Positions 14,570 to 57,101 of a stretch of 64,000 nucleotides of DNA are shown here, in pieces (the stretch's first letter is position 1; each line of letters opens with the position of its first letter). The position numbers were made by a program, and so were the translations under genes. The DNA comes from Candidatus Fimadaptatus faecigallinarum (GTDB taxonomy: Bacteria > Bacillota > Clostridia > Christensenellales > Aristaeellaceae), in the NCBI GenBank assembly GCA_018714445.1, contig DVNK01000005.1, positions 1-64,000 of the forward strand. The letters run 5' to 3'. A model generated the notes under the pieces. That model did not search any database. It had not been told where the DNA came from and saw nothing but the letters and a program-made list of their open reading frames with translations.

Positions 14570-15093
14570 CTGCTAAAGCCGGCTGACATCACATGCGCGG
14601 CATTCTGCAGCCTGGCTTGTCAACGACCGCATCCGCACGTAGTTGCCTTAACACGCGTGGCATTCTGTGCTGCCGGAAGCAAGTATTGTGCGGGTGACAA
14701 ACGGCTGACCTCACTTACTTAGCATTCAGCAGTCCCGACTCGTCACTACCTGCACCCGCGCGCATCTGCCTTAACACGCGCGGCATTCTGCGCTGATGGG
14801 CGCAAGCCCTGTGCATGTGCCAACTGTTAGCCCCTCACGCATGGCATTCAGCAGCTCCGAATCGTCACCACACGCATCCGCGCATAGTTGCCTTAACACG
14901 CGCGGCATTCTGCGCTGCTTGGCGCAAGCATTGTGCGGGTGACAAACGGCTGACCTCACTTGCGTGGCATTCAGCAGCCCCGACTCGTCACTACCCGCAC
15001 CCGCGCATAGCTGCCTTAACACGCGTGGCATTCTGCGCTGGTGGGCGTAAACCATGTGCAGGTGACAACCGTTTGCCCTCACACTTGGCATTC
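14570..15093. repeat. Higher-order tandem array: about 61-bp half-units paired into a 123-bp unit
   Basis: GGCATTC (once AGCATTC) recurs at 14599, 14659, 14721, 14782, 14843, 14904, 14966, 15027 and 15087, which is every 60-62 bases. CCTTAACACGCG recurs only in every second half-unit, at 14646, 14769, 14891 and 15014, giving a period of 122-123. So A and B half-units alternate, in about four double units. The array lies between the convergent RimJ-like and SSB-like genes. Frames open across it (14771-15091 minus, 14815-15114 plus) have no ribosome binding site and are taken as by-products. Confidence 0.9.
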
Positions 15094-15352: not shown

Positions 15353-16006
15353 TCACTGCGCCTCATCAAGCACCGTCTGCGCCTCGGCCTCTTCGACCGG
15401 CGCCGTCTCATCCTCCAGCCAAAATACCGATATTTCATATACTTGCCGCTTTTGCGACGTGCCGTCGGGCAGTTGCTTGTCGTACTGCCGCGACTGCAGC
15501 CGACCTTTTATGTGCAGTTTGCAACCCACTTTGAGCTGGGACACATGCCGCGCCGTGCGGCCCCAGGTGATCGAGGGTATATAATCGCTCTTGCCAAACG
15601 AGCGGTTCACAGCCAGCATCATGTCGCATATCTCACGCCCAAATGGCGTCGTCCTGAAGATCGGTTGTTTGCATATCGTGCCATGCAGCTCGACCTGATT
15701 GTGGTTTTCGGTCAGCTCGGCCACCTCCAGATGCTGCACAAATACTGTGACCACCAGCCGCCCCACGCCTTCCACCATGCGGTTATACGTGCGCACCTGA
15801 CCGTCGAGCGATATCGCAGTGCCGGGCTTGATCTCGGCATCCAGCAGTCGTTCCGATACCGTCAGCGGCAGATAGTCCGGCACGCCGGACAGCCTGTCCA
15901 CCTTCAGCATGCACGTATAGAACATCTCGCCCATCACCTGATGATCCGGCACCGGCTTATCCTCCAGCACACCCGAAAGCACTATATGATTGTTGTCCCG
16001 ATCCAT
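15353..16006 (-). CDS. Single-stranded DNA-binding protein-like, two OB domains
   Basis: A 217-residue protein with two successive OB-fold/SSB-like modules, about 4-95 and 99-198. Each starts with a short strand of the N-x-V/I-x-L-x-G type (NNHIVLSGVLEDKP and NHNQVELHGTICKQP). The second has the SSB-like FGREICDMMLAVNRSFGKSDYIP and WGRTARHVSQLKVG. The C-terminus (EEAEAQTVLDEAQ) is acidic but lacks the DIPF-type tip of a classical bacterial SSB. It may be an accessory SSB rather than the replicative one. AGGAGGA precedes the ATG. Confidence 0.75.
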   Translation of the reverse strand: MDRDNNHIVLSGVLEDKPVPDHQVMGEMFYTCMLKVDRLSGVPDYLPLTVSERLLDAEIKPGTAISLDGQVRTYNRMVEGVGRLVVTVFVQHLEVAELTENHNQVELHGTICKQPIFRTTPFGREICDMMLAVNRSFGKSDYIPSITWGRTARHVSQLKVGCKLHIKGRLQSRQYDKQLPDGTSQKRQVYEISVFWLEDETAPVEEAEAQTVLDEAQ

Positions 16007-17014: not shown

Positions 17015-17535
17015 TTTCTTCATTATATTATGTCAAATGTGTACAGTTGAATCGGCAGCATTCGCCACTCGCGACAGTATGGCCACGTTGAGCACATGAC
17101 AGGTATATTTATTATTCACCCGTTCCGAACGTTTCATTGATATGTATAACGACACTTAAAATTCCGGCTGAATGCTCTGGTGCATGCCCACCCAAAGCGC
17201 CAAAGTTTAAATGTGGTCTCCAGCAAATACACGACCGCTGCCGGCAGCCGCAGCATCCCAAATTATGCAGCATCGCGGAAAACTGACATCTTGACCCGCC
17301 CCAGTCCAAACAGCCAATACGAAGTGCCATGAAGGCCGCATGGCACGCAGGTAAAACCCGTAGGCCGCAAAATCACCGACAGCCGCGGAATGCGACCGCG
17401 ATCTGCCCGGCTTCATGCGAATATAGCCCGGCAAGCGCTCAATTTAAAAATCGGCCTTACTATTGCACGCGCTGTCAGCGGCGTGCCTCACGGCTAATAC
17501 ATGCCATATAAACGATGTTTCACTCACCAAATCAG
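17015..17535. other. Intergenic stretch, mostly without recognised content
   Basis: About 520 bases between the terminator at 16972 and the repeat array at 17536. GC is lower than in the genes. A minus-strand TATAAT at 17024-17029, overlapped upstream by CATTTGACATAA, is the only promoter-like element. I see no convincing reading frame, tRNA or riboswitch. Confidence 0.4.
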
Positions 17536-17747
17536 CAGCCACCCGCTAAACAGCGCGCCATATGCAAATCGGCGCGTCTCGCGCTAAGCAGCACACACAT
17601 GCAAATCGGCGCGCCTCGCGCTAAGCAGCGCACACATGCAAATCGGCGCGTCTCGCGCTAAGCAGCGCACACATGCAAATCGGCGCGCCTCGCGCTAAGC
17701 AGCGCATCACATGCAAATCGGCGCGCCACCCGCAATCACACTTGCAG
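17536..17747. repeat. 37-bp tandem array merging into the ribulokinase terminator
   Basis: ATGCAAATCGGCGCG starts at 17562, 17599, 17636, 17673 and 17711, giving periods of 37, 37, 37 and 38. Each unit contains a small hairpin, GCGCTAAGCAGCGC, and most contain the palindrome GGCGCGCC. The last unit continues directly into the left arm of the terminator at 17719-17758, so unit and terminator share sequence. There are no spacers, which rules out CRISPR. Confidence 0.92.
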
Positions 17748-17758
17748 GTGGCGCGCCG
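17719..17758 (-). terminator. Hairpin terminator of ribulokinase
   Basis: A 17-base stem with one mismatch (CGGCGCGCCACC... with its complement) and a six-base loop lies 26 bases after the stop codon. The T-run on the minus strand is short (ATTTG). Confidence 0.6.
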
Positions 17759-17784: not shown

Positions 17785-19455
17785 TCACTTGGACTGCGCG
17801 CGCTTTATGTCCTTGAGCCGCTTCATGACGTCGTTGCCGCCACGGCCGAAATAGTCGTGCAACGTCACATACTCGGCATACAGCTTCTCATAGATCGCCT
17901 GGTTCTCGGGTATCGGACGGTAGACTACGTCTTTGACGCCGCCCATGTGCTTGGCCGCATCGACTATCGAGTCATAGCCGCCGCGCGCTGCGCCCGCCGC
18001 AACCGCGCCGAACATCGCCGCACCCAGCGCCGGGGCCTGAGCCGAACGCGCTATGCGTATCTCATAGCCCAGCACGTCGGCGTAGATCTGCATCATAAAC
18101 GCGTTCTTCTGCGCTATGCCGCCGCACGCGTATATCTCTTCTATCTTGACGCCGCTCTTATTGAACGTATCGACTATCATGCGCGCGCCATACGCCGTGG
18201 CCTCGACCAGCGCGCGATACATCTCCTCGGGCTTGGTCGTCAGCGTCATGCCCATCATCATGCCTGTCAGGTTGGTGTCGACCAGCACGCTGCGGTTGCC
18301 GTTCCACCAGTCCAGCGCCAGCAGACCGCTCTCGCCGGGCTTGAACTTGCTGGCCTTCTCGGTCAGCAGCACGTGCAGGCTGATGCCGCGCGCGTCGGCT
18401 TCGCGCTTGTAGTCCTCGGGCACGCAGTTGTCGACGAACCAGTTGAAGTGGTCGCCGACGCAGCTCTGACCGGCCTCATAGCCCATAAGCCCCGGTATTA
18501 CGCCGTCCTCGACGACGCCGCACATGCCGGGCACAATCAGCTCCTCGTCATGCAGCATTATGTCGCAGGTCGACGTGCCCATTATCATAAGCATCTTGCC
18601 CTTTTCGGTGAGGCCGGTCGGCGGCAGCGACACATGCGCGTCCACGTTTGCGACTGCGACCGCGGTGCCCTCAGCCAGGCCCGACCACTTGGCCGCCTCA
18701 GCCGTAACTTCGCCCGCCTTTGAGCCTATCGGGTATATGTCGGTGCTGAGCTTGTCCTCGACCAGGTTCTCCAGCCGCGGGTCGAGCGCCTTGAAGAACT
18801 CCTTGCTCGGATAACCTTCCTTCTTGGACCACATGGCCTTATAGCCTGCGGTGCAGCTGTTGCGCGCTTCCTTGCCGGTCAGCTGCATTATGACCCAGTC
18901 AGCCGCCTCCATGAAGCGATCGGTGGCCGCGTATACCTCGGGCGCCTCCAGCAGCACCTGCCAGATCTTGGGTATCATCCACTCGCTGGAGATCTTGCCG
19001 CCGTAGCGCTTGAGGAAGGTCTCGCCGCGCTCCTCGGCTATCGCGTTGAGCCTGTCGGCCAGGTACTGCGCGGCGTGATGTTTCCACAGCTTCACATAGG
19101 AGTGCGGATTGGACTTGAACTCGTCCTTGCAGCACAGCGGCACGCCCGCCTTGTCGACCGCTATCATCGTACAGGCGGTAAAGTCTATCGACATGCCAAC
19201 CACGTCCGCATTGTTCACGCCCGACTGACGCAGCACCTCATTTACCGTATAGCTCAGCGTGTCAATGTAGTCCTGGGGATGTTCCAGCGCCCAATCCGGC
19301 GGGAGCTTGGTGCCATCGGGCAGTTGTTCGTCCATAACCGCATGGGGATAATCCATAGTAGCCGTGGCCAGTTCGCGGCCGTCCGCCACATCGACCAGCA
19401 ACGCGCGCGCCGACAGCGTGCCAAAGTCCACGCCTATACAATACTTCGCAGCCAT
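17785..19455 (-). CDS. araB: Ribulokinase
   Basis: Phosphorylates L-ribulose with ATP in the L-arabinose pathway (EC 2.7.1.16). At 556 residues it has the normal length for AraB. FGGY-family landmarks are [18 protein letters not shown] at the N-terminus, [38 protein letters not shown], and [10 protein letters not shown] near the C-terminus, followed by [21 protein letters not shown] precedes the ATG. No isomerase (araA), epimerase (araD) or transporter is adjacent, so arabinose use would rely on genes elsewhere. A different FGGY kinase is possible but AraB is the best match. Confidence 0.9.
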
Positions 19456-20907: not shown

Positions 20908-22707
20908 ATGAACATCTCGACCGCCGCAGAACTGCGCGCGCTGTTTCTCAAGTTCTTCCAGCAGAAGGGCCACGCGCTGATACCCAGCGCCTCGGTCATA
21001 CCCGAAAACGACCCCACCGTGCTGTTCACGACCGCCGGCATGCACCCGCTCGTGCCTTACCTGATGGGCGCCAAGCACCCGATGGGCACTCGCCTGACCG
21101 ACGTGCAAAAGTGCGTGCGCACCGGCGATATCGACGACGTGGGCGACGCCTCCCACTGCACGTTCTTTGAGATGCTGGGCAACTGGTCGCTGGGCGACTA
21201 CTTCAAGAAGGAAGCTATATCCTGGAGCTGGGAGTTCCTGACCAGCCCTGAGTGGCTGGGCCTGGATCCTGACAAGCTCGCGTTTACCGTGTTCGCCGGC
21301 GACGAAAACTGCCCCCGCGATGACGAGAGCTACGAGCTGTGGCGCTCGATGGGCGTCAAGGAAGATCACATATTCTTCCTGCCCAAGGAGAACAACTGGT
21401 GGGGACCTGCCGGCGTGACCGGCCCGTGCGGCCCCGATACCGAGATGTTCATAATACGCGACGTGCCCGACTGCGGCCCGAACTGCTCGCCCGCGTGCTC
21501 GTGCGGCAAGTACCTCGAGATCTGGAACGACGTGTTCATGCAGTACAACAAGCAGGCCGACGGCAGCTATGCCCCGCTGGCTCAAAAGAACGTCGATACC
21601 GGCATGGGACTGGAGCGCACTATAAGCGTGCTGACCGGCAAGTCCACCGTCTATGAGACCGACCTGTTCAGCGACATAATCGCGCGCATTGGCGAGCTGT
21701 GCGGCCACAAGTACGGCGAGAATGAGGAAGTCACTCGCTCTATGCGCATAGTCGCTGACCACATGCGCACCGCCACCATGATACTCGGCGACGACAAGGG
21801 CGTCAGCCCGTCCAACGTCGACCAGGGCTATGTGCTGCGCCGCCTGATACGCCGCGCTGTGCGCCATGGCATGAAGCTGGGCATGCCCGAAAATGCAACC
21901 GGCGAGATCGCCAAGGTCGTAATCAAGCAGTACGAAAATGTCTACCCCGAGCTGACCCGCAACACCGCATTCATACTCGAACAGCTCCAGCTCGAAGAGG
22001 CGCGCTTCCAGAAGACGCTGCGCCAGGGCCTCAAGGAGTTCGAAAAGGCCGTGTCCAAGCTGGGCGAGGCGCGCATGATAGACGGTGTGACCGCGTTCCA
22101 CCTGTACGATACCTTCGGCTTCCCGATAGAGATAACCAAGGAAATGGCGGCCGAGCGCGGTCTGAGCGTGGACGAACCCGCGTTCGAGAAAGCGTTCAAG
22201 AAGCATCAGGCCACCAGCCACGCCGGCGCCGAGCAGCGCTTCAAGGGCGGCCTGGCCGACAACACCGAGGCCACCGCGCGCCTGCACACCGCCACTCACC
22301 TGCTGCACGCCGCGCTGCGCAAGGTAATCGGACCCGAGGTCGCACAGAAAGGCTCCAACATAACCGCCGAGCGCCTGCGCTTTGACTTCTCGTGCCCGCG
22401 CAAGCTGACCAAGGATGAGCTCAAGGAAGTCGAGCGCCTGGTCAATGAGGCGATTGACGCTCACGCTCCGATAACCTGCGAGGAGATGACCGTGGACGAG
22501 GCCAAGGCTCAGGGCGCTATCGGCCTGTTCGAGAGCAAGTACGGCGAGCGCGTCAAGGTCTACACGATGGGCGAGTTCTCCAAGGAGATCTGCGGCGGCC
22601 CTCATGCGAACAACACCGGCGACCTGGTGCACTTCCACATCCAGAAAGAGGAGTCCTCCTCGGCGGGCGTGCGCCGCATAAAGGCCACCATCGACGCCAA
22701 CAAGTAA
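20908..22707 (+). CDS. alaS: Alanyl-tRNA synthetase, short form lacking the C-terminal region
   Basis: Charges tRNA-Ala (EC 6.1.1.7). It has the class II catalytic core: TFFEMLGNWSLGDYFK, TGPCGPDTEM and GMGLERTISVL. The tRNA-recognition helices contain RIVADHMRTATMILGD and DQGYVLRRLIRRAVRHG. The editing-domain zinc residues are HTATHLLH and CGGPH. The protein has about 599 residues, whereas a typical bacterial AlaRS has about 875. The chain jumps from the helical domain (KKHQATSHAGAEQRF) almost directly to HTATH, so the beta-barrel insert is missing. It ends at DANK, so the DHHA1/C-Ala region is missing too. The sequence after the stop does not encode them. The ATG at 20908 is preferred to 20902 because of AAGGAG at 20893-20898. 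CGGTH, usual in the family, is CGGPH here. Confidence 0.92.
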   Translation: MNISTAAELRALFLKFFQQKGHALIPSASVIPENDPTVLFTTAGMHPLVPYLMGAKHPMGTRLTDVQKCVRTGDIDDVGDASHCTFFEMLGNWSLGDYFKKEAISWSWEFLTSPEWLGLDPDKLAFTVFAGDENCPRDDESYELWRSMGVKEDHIFFLPKENNWWGPAGVTGPCGPDTEMFIIRDVPDCGPNCSPACSCGKYLEIWNDVFMQYNKQADGSYAPLAQKNVDTGMGLERTISVLTGKSTVYETDLFSDIIARIGELCGHKYGENEEVTRSMRIVADHMRTATMILGDDKGVSPSNVDQGYVLRRLIRRAVRHGMKLGMPENATGEIAKVVIKQYENVYPELTRNTAFILEQLQLEEARFQKTLRQGLKEFEKAVSKLGEARMIDGVTAFHLYDTFGFPIEITKEMAAERGLSVDEPAFEKAFKKHQATSHAGAEQRFKGGLADNTEATARLHTATHLLHAALRKVIGPEVAQKGSNITAERLRFDFSCPRKLTKDELKEVERLVNEAIDAHAPITCEEMTVDEAKAQGAIGLFESKYGERVKVYTMGEFSKEICGGPHANNTGDLVHFHIQKEESSSAGVRRIKATIDANK

Positions 22708-23785: not shown

Positions 23786-24022
23786 AATGGTTAACATGCC
23801 GCCCCGAGCGATTCGAGCGATTCTTAAGTGGTTAACACGCCGCCCCGAGCGCATCGAGCTATCATTAAGTGGTTAACATGACGCCCCGGGCGCTTCGAGC
23901 TATCATTAAGTGGTTGACATGCCGCACCGAGCGCATCGAGCTATCATTAAGTGGTTGACATGCTACACCGAGCGCGTCGAGCTACCATTAAGTTTTTAAC
24001 ATGCCGCCACGAGCGCGTCGAG
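23769..24022. repeat. 41-bp tandem array starting inside the merR 3' end
   Basis: GGTTAACATG and close variants start at 23789, 23830, 23871, 23912, 23953 and 23994, every 41 bases exactly. The other conserved part of the unit is CGAGCGCATCGAGCTATCATTAAGT. A partial first copy, GCGTCGAGCGATACCTGAAAT, overlaps the last codons and stop of the MerR gene. There are no spacers, and copies drift gradually from one end of the array to the other. Confidence 0.95.
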
Positions 24023-24220
24023 CCGGATGGCGTCGCGCCTTGAGCTCTGCGCATCATGTCGCGCCGGAAACGCCTGATACATATTTGTCTTCAATGTCTC
24101 AGGCTGACCTTGAGCGCGCCGCTTCATTAAACTTGACACCGCCGCCTCTGCGCCGAGTATAGCGACATTTACCCAAATCGCATATCGCCTGCCGCCTCTG
24201 CCCGAGCGCGATGTTTGCGC
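24023..24220. other. Intergenic stretch between the 41-bp array and the next promoter
   Basis: About 200 bases with no recognisable gene. TGCCGCCTCTGCCCGAGCGCG and TGCCGCCTCTGC-like pieces occur around 24141 and 24190, which may be weak repeats. Nothing else stands out. Confidence 0.35.
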
Positions 24221-26340: not shown

Positions 26341-26510
26341 GGACGGTAACGCTCAATGGACGATCAGGCCCAAGGGACGACCAAGCCCAAGGGACGATCA
26401 GGCCCAAGGGACGTTCAAGCCCAACGGACGATCAAGCCCAACGGACGATCAAGCCCAACGGACAACCAGGCCCAACGGACGACCAGGCCCAACGGACGAC
26501 CACGCTCAGC
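26341..26510. repeat. 17-bp tandem array, ten copies
   Basis: GGACGATCAGGCCCAAG and variants repeat every 17 bases from 26341 to 26510. The first and last copies are degraded. Because 17 is not a multiple of three, all three forward frames stay open through the array and read similar 17-residue cycles (for example DDQAQRTIKPNGRSSPT). None has a convincing ribosome binding site. The array lies between the convergent P-loop kinase and inositol-phosphatase genes. Confidence 0.95.
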
Positions 26511-45465: not shown

Positions 45466-48385
45466 CGCCACGAGCGCACCGGCGGCGCTGCTGACCGACG
45501 ATCAGCGCCGCGCACAGGAGAACGCGCACGGTCGCGCCCATAGAAAAAAGCATAAGTCTTCATCAGCGGGAGCGCGTTCCAGACGTGCGCCCGCTAAAAA
45601 GCATATGACCTTCAAAAACCGCGTGCGCGCACTGCTGGGCAAGCCGCCGCTGCCCGATGCGCCGCCCAAGCGCACTCGCCTGTTTACGCAGATGCTGCTC
45701 AGCTTCATAGTGCTGACGCTGGTAACGTCGTTTGTAGCCGGCGCGCTGAACGTCACGCTGGTGCGCAATTACGTGCAGGATTCGTCGATGGAGACGCTGC
45801 TGGACCGCGTGGCGGCGATAGCCGATATGGTCGTGCGCCCCGGCGGCAGCCTGAAAGTCATAAACGTACAGCAGCTCGACGAGTGGGAGCGCCTGACCAA
45901 CGCCCAGGTGATACTGATAAACACCGACATGACACTGGTGACGCGCCAGATGCTGCGCAATCGCCGCCTCACCGTCACAATGGACATGGACACGACCCAG
46001 ACCCAGGCCGTGGACGACGAGGGCGCGGCTCAGGACGCCGTCGACGCCGAGGCCTCCGGCGACGCGTCGGATGTGGACAATACCCAGATACTCAGCGCGA
46101 TAGATTACGAGCTGGTCTCCAGCATACTCTCCGGTCAGACCGTTGCCGACGTGCGGCAGTTCGACTTCATGGAGGGCACATGGCTGTTCGCCGGCGTGCC
46201 GATAATATCGGGCGGACAGGTCGACGGCGGCGTGCTGCTGTGCCAGCCGCTGTCGCAGATCGACGGCGTGTCGCGCAATATATCGCTGATAATGAGTTTG
46301 GCGGTGTCGATATCGACGCTGTTTGCAATAATGCTGTCGCTGCTGCTGACCCAGCGCATCGTGCAGCCCGTGGCCGCAATGACCCGCACCGCACAGCGCA
46401 TGGCCAACGGCAACTACGGCGAGCGCGTCACGATACCCACCACTACCGAAATCGCTCAGCTTGGCGAGTCGCTCAATCACCTTTCGGGCAACCTGTACAC
46501 CACCATTCGCTCGCTCAATCAGGAGAAGATAAAGATGGAGCTGGTGCTCTCGGGCATAGGCGAGGGCATAATGGCGATCAACCAGATCGGCAAGATGGTG
46601 CACTGCAACGACGCCGCGGTAAAGCTGCTCGAGCTGCGCGAGGAGGACGCTCAGTGCGATGTGTACGAGCTGACCGAGCGCAGTCCGCTGATAGGAATGC
46701 TGATACAGGTGCTCGAAACCGGCGAAACGCTTGACGGCGGCTGGAAAAACGGCGCCGGTCAGTCGGTGTCCGCCACTGTGTCGCCGATTCGCATGGGCGA
46801 CGATCTGGTCGGCGCGGTCGGACTGGTGCGCGATGTCAGCGAGGCCGAGCGGCTGGAGCAGTTGCGCCGCGACTATGTGGCCAACATATCACACGAACTG
46901 CGCACTCCGCTGACCGGCATACGCGGCATGGTAGAGCCGCTCATAGACGGCGTCTACGATACCGAGGCCGAAAAGCAGGACTGCTATCATATTATCTATC
47001 AGGAGACGCTCCGCCTTGAGCGCCTTATAACCGACATGCTCGACATAAGCCGCCTGCAGGATGGCCGCATCCACATCGATCTGGAGGAGATGCAGGTGCA
47101 TGGCGTGCTCGAAGCCGCTGCGCGCAGGCTTGAAAAGCGCGCCGACGACGAGGGCGTGCGCCTTATCGTAGAACAGGGCGAAGATCCGGTTGTGCTCGGC
47201 AACGAGGACCGGATAATGCAGGTGCTGATAATACTCATCGACAACGCGCTCAAGTTCACGCCCGCAGGCGGTTCAGTCACACTGCGCACGCGCCTGGCTG
47301 AGGGCATGCTGTGGCTGTCGGTGCGCGACACCGGCGCCGGCATAGCCAAGGATGATCTGCCATATATATTCGAGCGCTTCTATAAGGCCGACAAGTCGCG
47401 CATGGAGACGCGCGGCACAGGCCTGGGCCTGGCAATTGCGCGGCTGGTCGTTGAGCTGATGGGCGGCACGATATGGTGTGAGAGCGAGCTGGGCCATGGC
47501 TCGACGTTCGAGTTCTCACTGAAGCTGGCAGGGCAGACCGACGAGCCTGATGCCGACACGGAGCCGATACCACGTCCTCGCGCCGCTGACGCAGATGCGG
47601 AGCCGATACCACGTTCCCGTGCCGCTGACGCAGATGCGGAACCGATACCACGTTCACGCGCCGCTGACGCAGATGCGGAACCGATACCACGTCCCCGCGC
47701 CGCTGATGCAGATGCGGAGCCGATACCACGTCCCCGCGCCGCTGATGCAGACACGGAGCCGGTACCCCGTCCTCGCGCCGCTGATGCAGATGCGGAGCCG
47801 ATACCACGTCCTCGCGCCGCTGATGCAGATACAGATCCGGCATCCAGTTTCCGTACCTCCGACGCCGATGAGGAGCCAATACCCCGTTCCCGCGCTGCCG
47901 ACGCAGATGCGGAACTCGGCATGGAGCCGATACCCCGTCCTCGCGCCACCCACGAAGCTGAGCCAACGTCCGACGCCGATATTGACCAACCAGCGCCCCG
48001 TCGTACCGCTCAATCCGCCGACGGTCCCGTTGAAACGCACGCAGAGCGAATATCCGTGACGGCGCTGCAGCCTGCGGCCCACGGCGAACGCGCATCCGAA
48101 GTTCCCGCACAGGAGCCCGCGCCGCCGGAGACGGTGTTGCCTAGCGTCAGCCCATCCGAATCGCTGATAACGCGCGCACAGCTGCACGAGGCTGCCGTGC
48201 TGGCCGGCATCGACGACGAGGGCATGGAGTTTGACGAGCTGCTCAAACAACTGCTGCGCGTGCGCCGAGGCGCCGCACATGGCGACGCATCGCATGCACC
48301 ACAGTCCACAGCACAGGACGGCGCGCCCGCTGAGCATAGCGAGCCCCTGCGCCCCTGCAAAGGCCGTCACAGCACTCCGCAGTGA
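45449..48385 (+). CDS. Sensor histidine kinase (WalK/PhoR-like) with a 13-residue tandem-repeat tail
   Basis: Partner of the response regulator. It runs as follows: a basic N-terminal tail (1-75), TM1 (about 80-101), an extracellular sensor domain (about 102-275), TM2 (about 278-300) and HAMP (about 300-355). A PAS domain (about 362-465) and HisKA with ANISHELRTPLTGIRG (His 482) come next. The ATPase domain has N-box ILIDNALKFTP, G1 DTGAGI and G2 GTGLGLAI, ending near 695. Residues about 699-835 are ten units of a 13-residue repeat, typically DADAEPIPRPRAA. Unit eight and the last unit are altered. A Pro-rich stretch follows, and then a helical C-terminus (LITRAQLHEAAVLAGIDDEG, about 906-925, then FDELLKQLLRVRRG). 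A normal WalK ends near the ATPase domain. The start at 45449 is translationally coupled; a start at 45604 has no better ribosome binding site. Confidence 0.92.
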   Translation: MKWSHDATSAPAALLTDDQRRAQENAHGRAHRKKHKSSSAGARSRRAPAKKHMTFKNRVRALLGKPPLPDAPPKRTRLFTQMLLSFIVLTLVTSFVAGALNVTLVRNYVQDSSMETLLDRVAAIADMVVRPGGSLKVINVQQLDEWERLTNAQVILINTDMTLVTRQMLRNRRLTVTMDMDTTQTQAVDDEGAAQDAVDAEASGDASDVDNTQILSAIDYELVSSILSGQTVADVRQFDFMEGTWLFAGVPIISGGQVDGGVLLCQPLSQIDGVSRNISLIMSLAVSISTLFAIMLSLLLTQRIVQPVAAMTRTAQRMANGNYGERVTIPTTTEIAQLGESLNHLSGNLYTTIRSLNQEKIKMELVLSGIGEGIMAINQIGKMVHCNDAAVKLLELREEDAQCDVYELTERSPLIGMLIQVLETGETLDGGWKNGAGQSVSATVSPIRMGDDLVGAVGLVRDVSEAERLEQLRRDYVANISHELRTPLTGIRGMVEPLIDGVYDTEAEKQDCYHIIYQETLRLERLITDMLDISRLQDGRIHIDLEEMQVHGVLEAAARRLEKRADDEGVRLIVEQGEDPVVLGNEDRIMQVLIILIDNALKFTPAGGSVTLRTRLAEGMLWLSVRDTGAGIAKDDLPYIFERFYKADKSRMETRGTGLGLAIARLVVELMGGTIWCESELGHGSTFEFSLKLAGQTDEPDADTEPIPRPRAADADAEPIPRSRAADADAEPIPRSRAADADAEPIPRPRAADADAEPIPRPRAADADTEPVPRPRAADADAEPIPRPRAADADTDPASSFRTSDADEEPIPRSRAADADAELGMEPIPRPRATHEAEPTSDADIDQPAPRRTAQSADGPVETHAERISVTALQPAAHGERASEVPAQEPAPPETVLPSVSPSESLITRAQLHEAAVLAGIDDEGMEFDELLKQLLRVRRGAAHGDASHAPQSTAQDGAPAEHSEPLRPCKGRHSTPQ
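47543..47953 (+). repeat. In-frame 39-bp tandem array inside the sensor-kinase gene
   Basis: Ten approximately 39-base units encode Asp-Ala-Asp-(Ala/Thr)-Glu-Pro-Ile-Pro-Arg-(Pro/Ser)-Arg-Ala-Ala. Units differ mostly at third codon positions. One unit is diverged (DADTDPASSFRTS) and the last carries a four-residue insertion. Confidence 0.95.
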
Positions 48386-56567: not shown

Positions 56568-57075
56568 TTGGCACCGCAAAACATCGCACGGCGCGACTGC
56601 GCCCATGCCGCAGAATAGTCGTTACCGGCAAACGCTGGTCATACGCATTCCGCTCAAACAAACAGGTAGATCACCGCGCACAACTTGCGCTTGTTACTGA
56701 ATTGCGGGTACGCTGCATCCAAATCGCTGCATGCCACATACCGGACAACCGTCCATGCCGCATAATAGCCGCTATGCGTTGGATGCTAGTCTTACGCATT
56801 CCGCTCAAACCAACAAGTACATCACCGCGCACAACTTGTGCCTGTTACTGAATTGCGGGTGCGCTGCATCCAAATCGCTGCATGCCACATACCGGACAAC
56901 CGTCCATGCCGCATAATAGCCGCTATGCGTTAGATGCTAGTCTTACGCATTCCGCTCAAACCAACAGCGCACAACTTGCGCTTGTTACTGAGTTGCGGAT
57001 ACGCTACATACAAATCGCAGCAGGCCACATACCGGCCAACCGCTCATGCCGCATAATAATTGCTACGCGTTAGAC
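56568..57075. repeat. About 151-bp tandem array, just over three copies, next to the rpsU terminator
   Basis: GCGCACAACTTG recurs at about 56676, 56827 and 56967 (spacings 151 and 140; one copy lacks 11 bases). The other shared blocks, such as ACGCATTCCGCTCAAAC, CCACATACCGG and CATGCCGCATAATAG, repeat with the same spacing. The first and last copies are more diverged. The sequence GCGCACAACTTGCGC occurs once more at 57121, inside the loop of the rpsU terminator. Confidence 0.92.
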
Positions 57076-57101
57076 GCTCGCTCCGCGGTCCACGATAACG
57101 C

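Follow-up and report, generated by a model that had tools for sequence, protein, structure and literature searches.

A 37-bp minisatellite behind araB of Candidatus Fimadaptatus faecigallinarum shares its unit with the 3' half of the predicted araB terminator

The ribulokinase gene araB of Candidatus Fimadaptatus faecigallinarum is followed by a hairpin and then by a tandem array, and a sequence-only reading of the locus had claimed that this array adjoins the ribulokinase terminator and shares sequence with it. This claim holds in part: the array (17544-17727) runs into the hairpin (17719-17758), but some details of the shared sequence differ from those stated. The question is how the two came to share sequence, and whether the array grew out of the hairpin, the hairpin was made from the array, or the two abut by coincidence; furthermore, the repeat units could have a role of their own at RNA 3' ends. 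The window, that is, the whole stretch of 64,000 nucleotides that was analyzed, is contig C18 of a draft genome of 2.6 Mb, for which completeness is 91% and contamination 0%. The features of the window that bear on the question are as follows.

17785-19455, minus strand: araB, ribulokinase (TIGR01234 L-ribulokinase, 799.5 bits against a cut-off of 583.25)
17719-17758 (40 nt), minus strand: predicted terminator hairpin, 17-bp stem and 6-nt loop, then ATTTGCAT
17699-17735, minus strand: unit 1, the 3' arm of the predicted terminator, its T-rich tail and 12 nt further, aligned with the array units
17550-17698, minus strand: units 2-5, interior, 37-38 bp (TRF, unit table and alignment)
17521-17549, minus strand: unit 6, degenerate, at the far edge, keeping GCGGGTGGC of the terminator arm
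14580-15082, 23788-24023, 26354-26499 and 56634-57078: further intergenic arrays with unrelated units

A gap of 844 nt separates araB from the downstream gene, which is also on the minus strand and is polysaccharide-deacetylase-like, with scores below all its curated cut-offs. Elsewhere in the window, a short-kind alanine--tRNA ligase of 599 aa is predicted at 20908-22707 (NF002436, 951 bits, above the cut-off), and a PRK05813-family single-stranded DNA-binding protein, encoded at 15353-16006, adjoins a 123-bp intergenic array.

The hairpin has one characteristic of an intrinsic terminator, a stable G+C stem right after the stop codon of araB, at a spacing of 26 nt. The z-score of the hairpin stretch is -5.18, none of 200 shuffles folds as well, and the stem score is the highest among those printed for the 3' ends of the window. 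Comparison was made with a 416.6 kb sample of the same genome (16% of it), which consists of the window and 20 stretches (L108-L127) chosen by hand from the contigs and thus not random. Only gene 3' ends followed by a gap of 100 nt or more were counted in the sample, and 59 of these 190 have a stem score of at least 26, versus 6 of 189 gene 5' sides. The tail of the araB hairpin, ATTTGCAT, contains 4 T in 8 nt and accordingly does not appear in the consensus terminator scan, which demands 5 T in 8; the mean over 58 strong 3'-end hairpins of the sampled genome is 3.9 T, compared with 2.2 T for the opposite-strand control tails. Judged by its sequence, the araB hairpin is a typical, though weak-tailed, candidate terminator of the sampled genome.

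The array was detected by TRF as 4.9 copies of a 37-bp unit (93% matches, score 308) and, as its copies follow one another head to tail without interruption and its unit exceeds ~10 bp, is a bacterial minisatellite that is by itself ordinary. Because the terminator arm, the tail and the next 12 nt align with the other units, more is shared than the sequence-only reading had stated, and the array is better given as 17521-17735, with ~5.8 units of 37 bp downstream of araB. On the minus strand, cuts at TTAGCG divide it into six units, with the interior ones at 17662-17698, 17625-17661, 17588-17624 and 17550-17587. Unit 1 takes in all 17 nt of the arm (TTGCGGGTGGCGCGCCG), then the tail ATTTGCAT and a further 12 nt, and by a visual count it agrees with unit 2 at 33 of the 36 positions that align, the alignment having two single-base gaps. 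The earlier statement that the array runs into the left arm of the hairpin is correct for the plus strand but not for the araB transcript, in which this arm is the 3' (right) one; similarly, CGGCGCGCC, which had been assigned to every unit, is found at three of five places (17607, 17681 and 17719, of which the last is the arm of the hairpin), the remaining two having CGGCGCGTC, and GCGCTAAGCAGCGC, also assigned to every unit, is exact in three of five.

Two patterns within the array bear on its history. One site in units 2-5 alternates GG, GA, GG, GA, a 74-bp step that is the pattern expected from two-unit duplication. Within the arm, the first and the last units have GCGGGTGGC, in contrast to the four interior units, which have GCGCGAGGC or GCGCGAGAC. 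Unit 6, despite its degeneration, is truly related to the array units: its alignment score of 28 is reached by 4 of 5000 shuffles and by 28 of 20000 genomic 29-mers. The interior units depart from the terminator arm at two sites, and unit 6 has the letters of the arm at both, for which the chance is ~0.004 under a simple model of 6 changes in 29 positions.

The account that we favor, with a probability of about 0.6, is that a minisatellite was seeded by the 3' half of the araB terminator and then enlarged, and that the resulting array most likely has no function. In this account, a duplication would have copied the 3' half of this terminator, from the arm through the T-rich tail to ~12 nt downstream, after which the array would have been enlarged through replication slippage or unequal exchange, partly two units (74 bp) at a time; the interior units would then have been homogenized and have drifted, with older letters remaining in the edge units. 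The terminator would still serve as the stop signal of araB, and the array behind it may be tolerated, we propose, because its position 3' of the gene keeps it clear of promoters. Growth from the terminator is favored because unit 1 contains the whole arm and the far-edge unit retains arm letters lost inside. Thus, terminator first and array second, as suggested earlier, stands as the better-supported order (the arm belongs to a full unit, GCGGGTGGC is present at both edges and GCGCGAGGC in the interior), although the direction of growth is one that we infer.

The araB loci of relatives were compared for the sequence behind the gene. Of the 106 loci given, 78, including our own, were kept under the requirements of at least 55% identity, a match extending as far as residue 500 and a downstream sequence of 90 nt or more (L032, being too short, was left out). 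The 77 others are all from outside the genus, and they are not fully independent, with some organisms apparently present twice (L008/L055 and L010/L065). None of the 77 has the araB array. Tandem arrays of score above 100 follow araB in one of them (L092, an Anaerolineae MAG), with unrelated periods of 139 and 203. L099, whose protein is the most similar (78.5% over the C-terminal part), lacks arrays, and its hairpin is an unrelated one. A hairpin of score at least 22 lies within 90 nt of araB in just 13 of the 77 loci, so that a conserved ancestral terminator does not appear to be supported by the relatives. Nevertheless, some other araB genes are followed by terminator-like hairpins but by no array of the present type, and the array combined with a different terminator is found in 0 of the 77 loci, at distances too great to decide the order of events.

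The reverse order, in which the array came first and an inverted nearby copy, made by template switching, gave the left arm and turned the edge unit into a terminator, appears unlikely. It would explain why the right arm fits the array as one of its regular units and why the 17-bp stem is perfect and of unusual length, the expected product of an inverted duplication; however, it requires one extra event, the relatives show array-free hairpins behind araB, and the arm letters are kept at the far edge as if they were ancestral.

Coincidence, that is, an independent G+C-rich minisatellite that abuts the terminator and has in common with it only the self-complementary octamer GGCGCGCC, frequent in this genome, is quite improbable. 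The octamer occurs 83 times in the 416.6 kb sample, compared with 29 expected from base composition, and its presence in both arms of the hairpin is automatic because it is self-complementary. The extension of the match along the arm is by itself only modestly significant: the eight arm letters preceding GGCGCGCC are matched equally by 669 out of 20000 8-mers drawn at random from the genome and by 5 of the 165 8-mers that precede GGCGCGCC (the array's own copies counted), so that, taken alone, they would carry modest weight. Against coincidence, the match extends in a single register from the arm across the tail into the spacer, and the arm's letters are present in the far-edge unit. A possible homology of the left half and loop of the hairpin to the unit (TGCAnGTGTG) was also considered and rejected, with no match beyond chance; the inner left half is equalled by 690 of 5000 shuffles and by 966 of 20000 genomic 22-mers, a result that counts against the account favored above.

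The sequence-only reading had further proposed that each unit carries its own hairpin and acts as a weak 3'-end processing site, and a related possibility is that the units are weak terminators backing up the main one. Each interior unit has a possible short G+C stem with ATTTGCAT closely after it, and, by inspection, a hairpin GCGCG-AGR-CGCGC is possible, the loop of which contains the interior G/A change. Folding, however, is no greater than composition yields: the array RNA has a folding energy of -80.3 kcal/mol, compared with a shuffle mean of -85.7 (z +1.42), and 190 of 200 shuffles equal or exceed it in stability. In single-unit folds, the small hairpin is not the best structure, the 14-mer pointed out earlier is exact in just three of five copies, and the left arm of the terminator hairpin is present in no array unit. 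Moreover, transcripts from araB would meet the terminator before the array, and only read-through RNA would include the latter. A search of Rfam gave 5 matches, all far below gathering scores, and hence no known RNA family. Given that there is no sign of structure kept for its own sake, neither individual hairpins nor processing are upheld, and a backup role is the least credible of these explanations. An origin from a mobile element was rejected, with no match in phage or plasmid records.

The araB array is one of many in this genome. The sample contains 46 arrays of score at least 150 (genic ones included, 6 of them supplied by the window), while the 763 kb taken from 29 genomes of the family contain 7, a ratio of ~12 per base for a sample chosen as described above. 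The araB array is present at one place in the whole genome, and none of the 630 pairs among the 36 intergenic arrays of the sample (score at least 100) shows resemblance; therefore, the arrays appear to arise locally. With genes called by a simple codon-usage script and gaps of 100 nt or more considered, arrays occupy 11 of the 28 convergent gaps, 22 of the 124 co-directional ones and 1 of the 29 divergent ones; the difference is significant both for all gaps with a gene 3' end (33 of 152) against divergent ones (Fisher p 0.019) and for convergent against divergent ones (p 0.001). The period is a multiple of three in 22 of the 36 intergenic arrays (binomial p 0.001), which is unexpected for non-coding arrays, and several of them remain open in a frame, which points to coding stretches, missed or decayed, among them. 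Within a gene, a 39-bp x 9.1 array (47559-47913) occupies part of the C-terminal region of a predicted sensor histidine kinase (45605-48385), and its period, a multiple of three, would give a repeated peptide tail.

Sharing of sequence between terminator and array as a general rule was rejected by a rank comparison of 20 hairpin/array pairs among 83 hairpins (ranks 1, 1, 2, 5, 8, 10, 14, 17, 19, 24, 24, 35, 45, 48, 49, 57, 58, 60, 75 and 76). The two rank-1 pairs are the araB pair and that of an array in L126 which overlaps a gene end and contains the hairpin. Apart from the araB pair and one array located within a gene, the 18 other pairs rank from 2 to 76 of 83, the rank-2 pair being that of the window array 14580-15082; this lack of a general likeness also counts against seeding by the terminator. 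Loss of repair genes, for which mutS (TIGR01070), recJ (TIGR00644) and sbcD (TIGR00619) were searched, was rejected as the cause of the many arrays, all three being above their cut-offs. Taken as sequence evidence, these data make it seem that the genome makes or tolerates many arrays on the 3' sides of genes. It is conceivable, although we put this forward only tentatively, that an active lineage-specific process makes locus-specific minisatellites far more often than in the rest of the family, 3' of genes and with terminator hairpins among the seeds; if so, the araB array would be a case in which the seed is still legible. Given many unrelated arrays that are absent from the sampled relatives, array origin and birth rate become testable by comparison of strains, and the genome-wide richness in arrays is the part of these observations that deserves further attention.

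A limited search of the open-licence literature returned no description of an array seeded by a terminator arm, and the locus is best placed by comparison with three known systems. REP and BIME elements are dispersed palindromic repeats with many copies over the genome; they resemble the present case in being palindromic and located 3' of genes, but the araB array occupies a single genomic place and thus differs from them in dispersal. With intrinsic (Rho-independent) terminators, araB shares a strong G+C hairpin and a T-rich tail typical for the genome, the differences being that the tail ATTTGCAT is weak and that the repeated part is the 3' half only. MIRU-VNTR and MLVA markers are bacterial minisatellite or VNTR loci, and these consist of intergenic head-to-tail units of tens of bases with degenerate edge units and a homogenized interior, as does the araB array. 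The difference from these loci is that the unit of the araB array contains one arm of the adjoining terminator; the origins of minisatellites are seldom legible in sequence, and here the seed that we propose, the terminator arm, is recognizable at both edges of the array.
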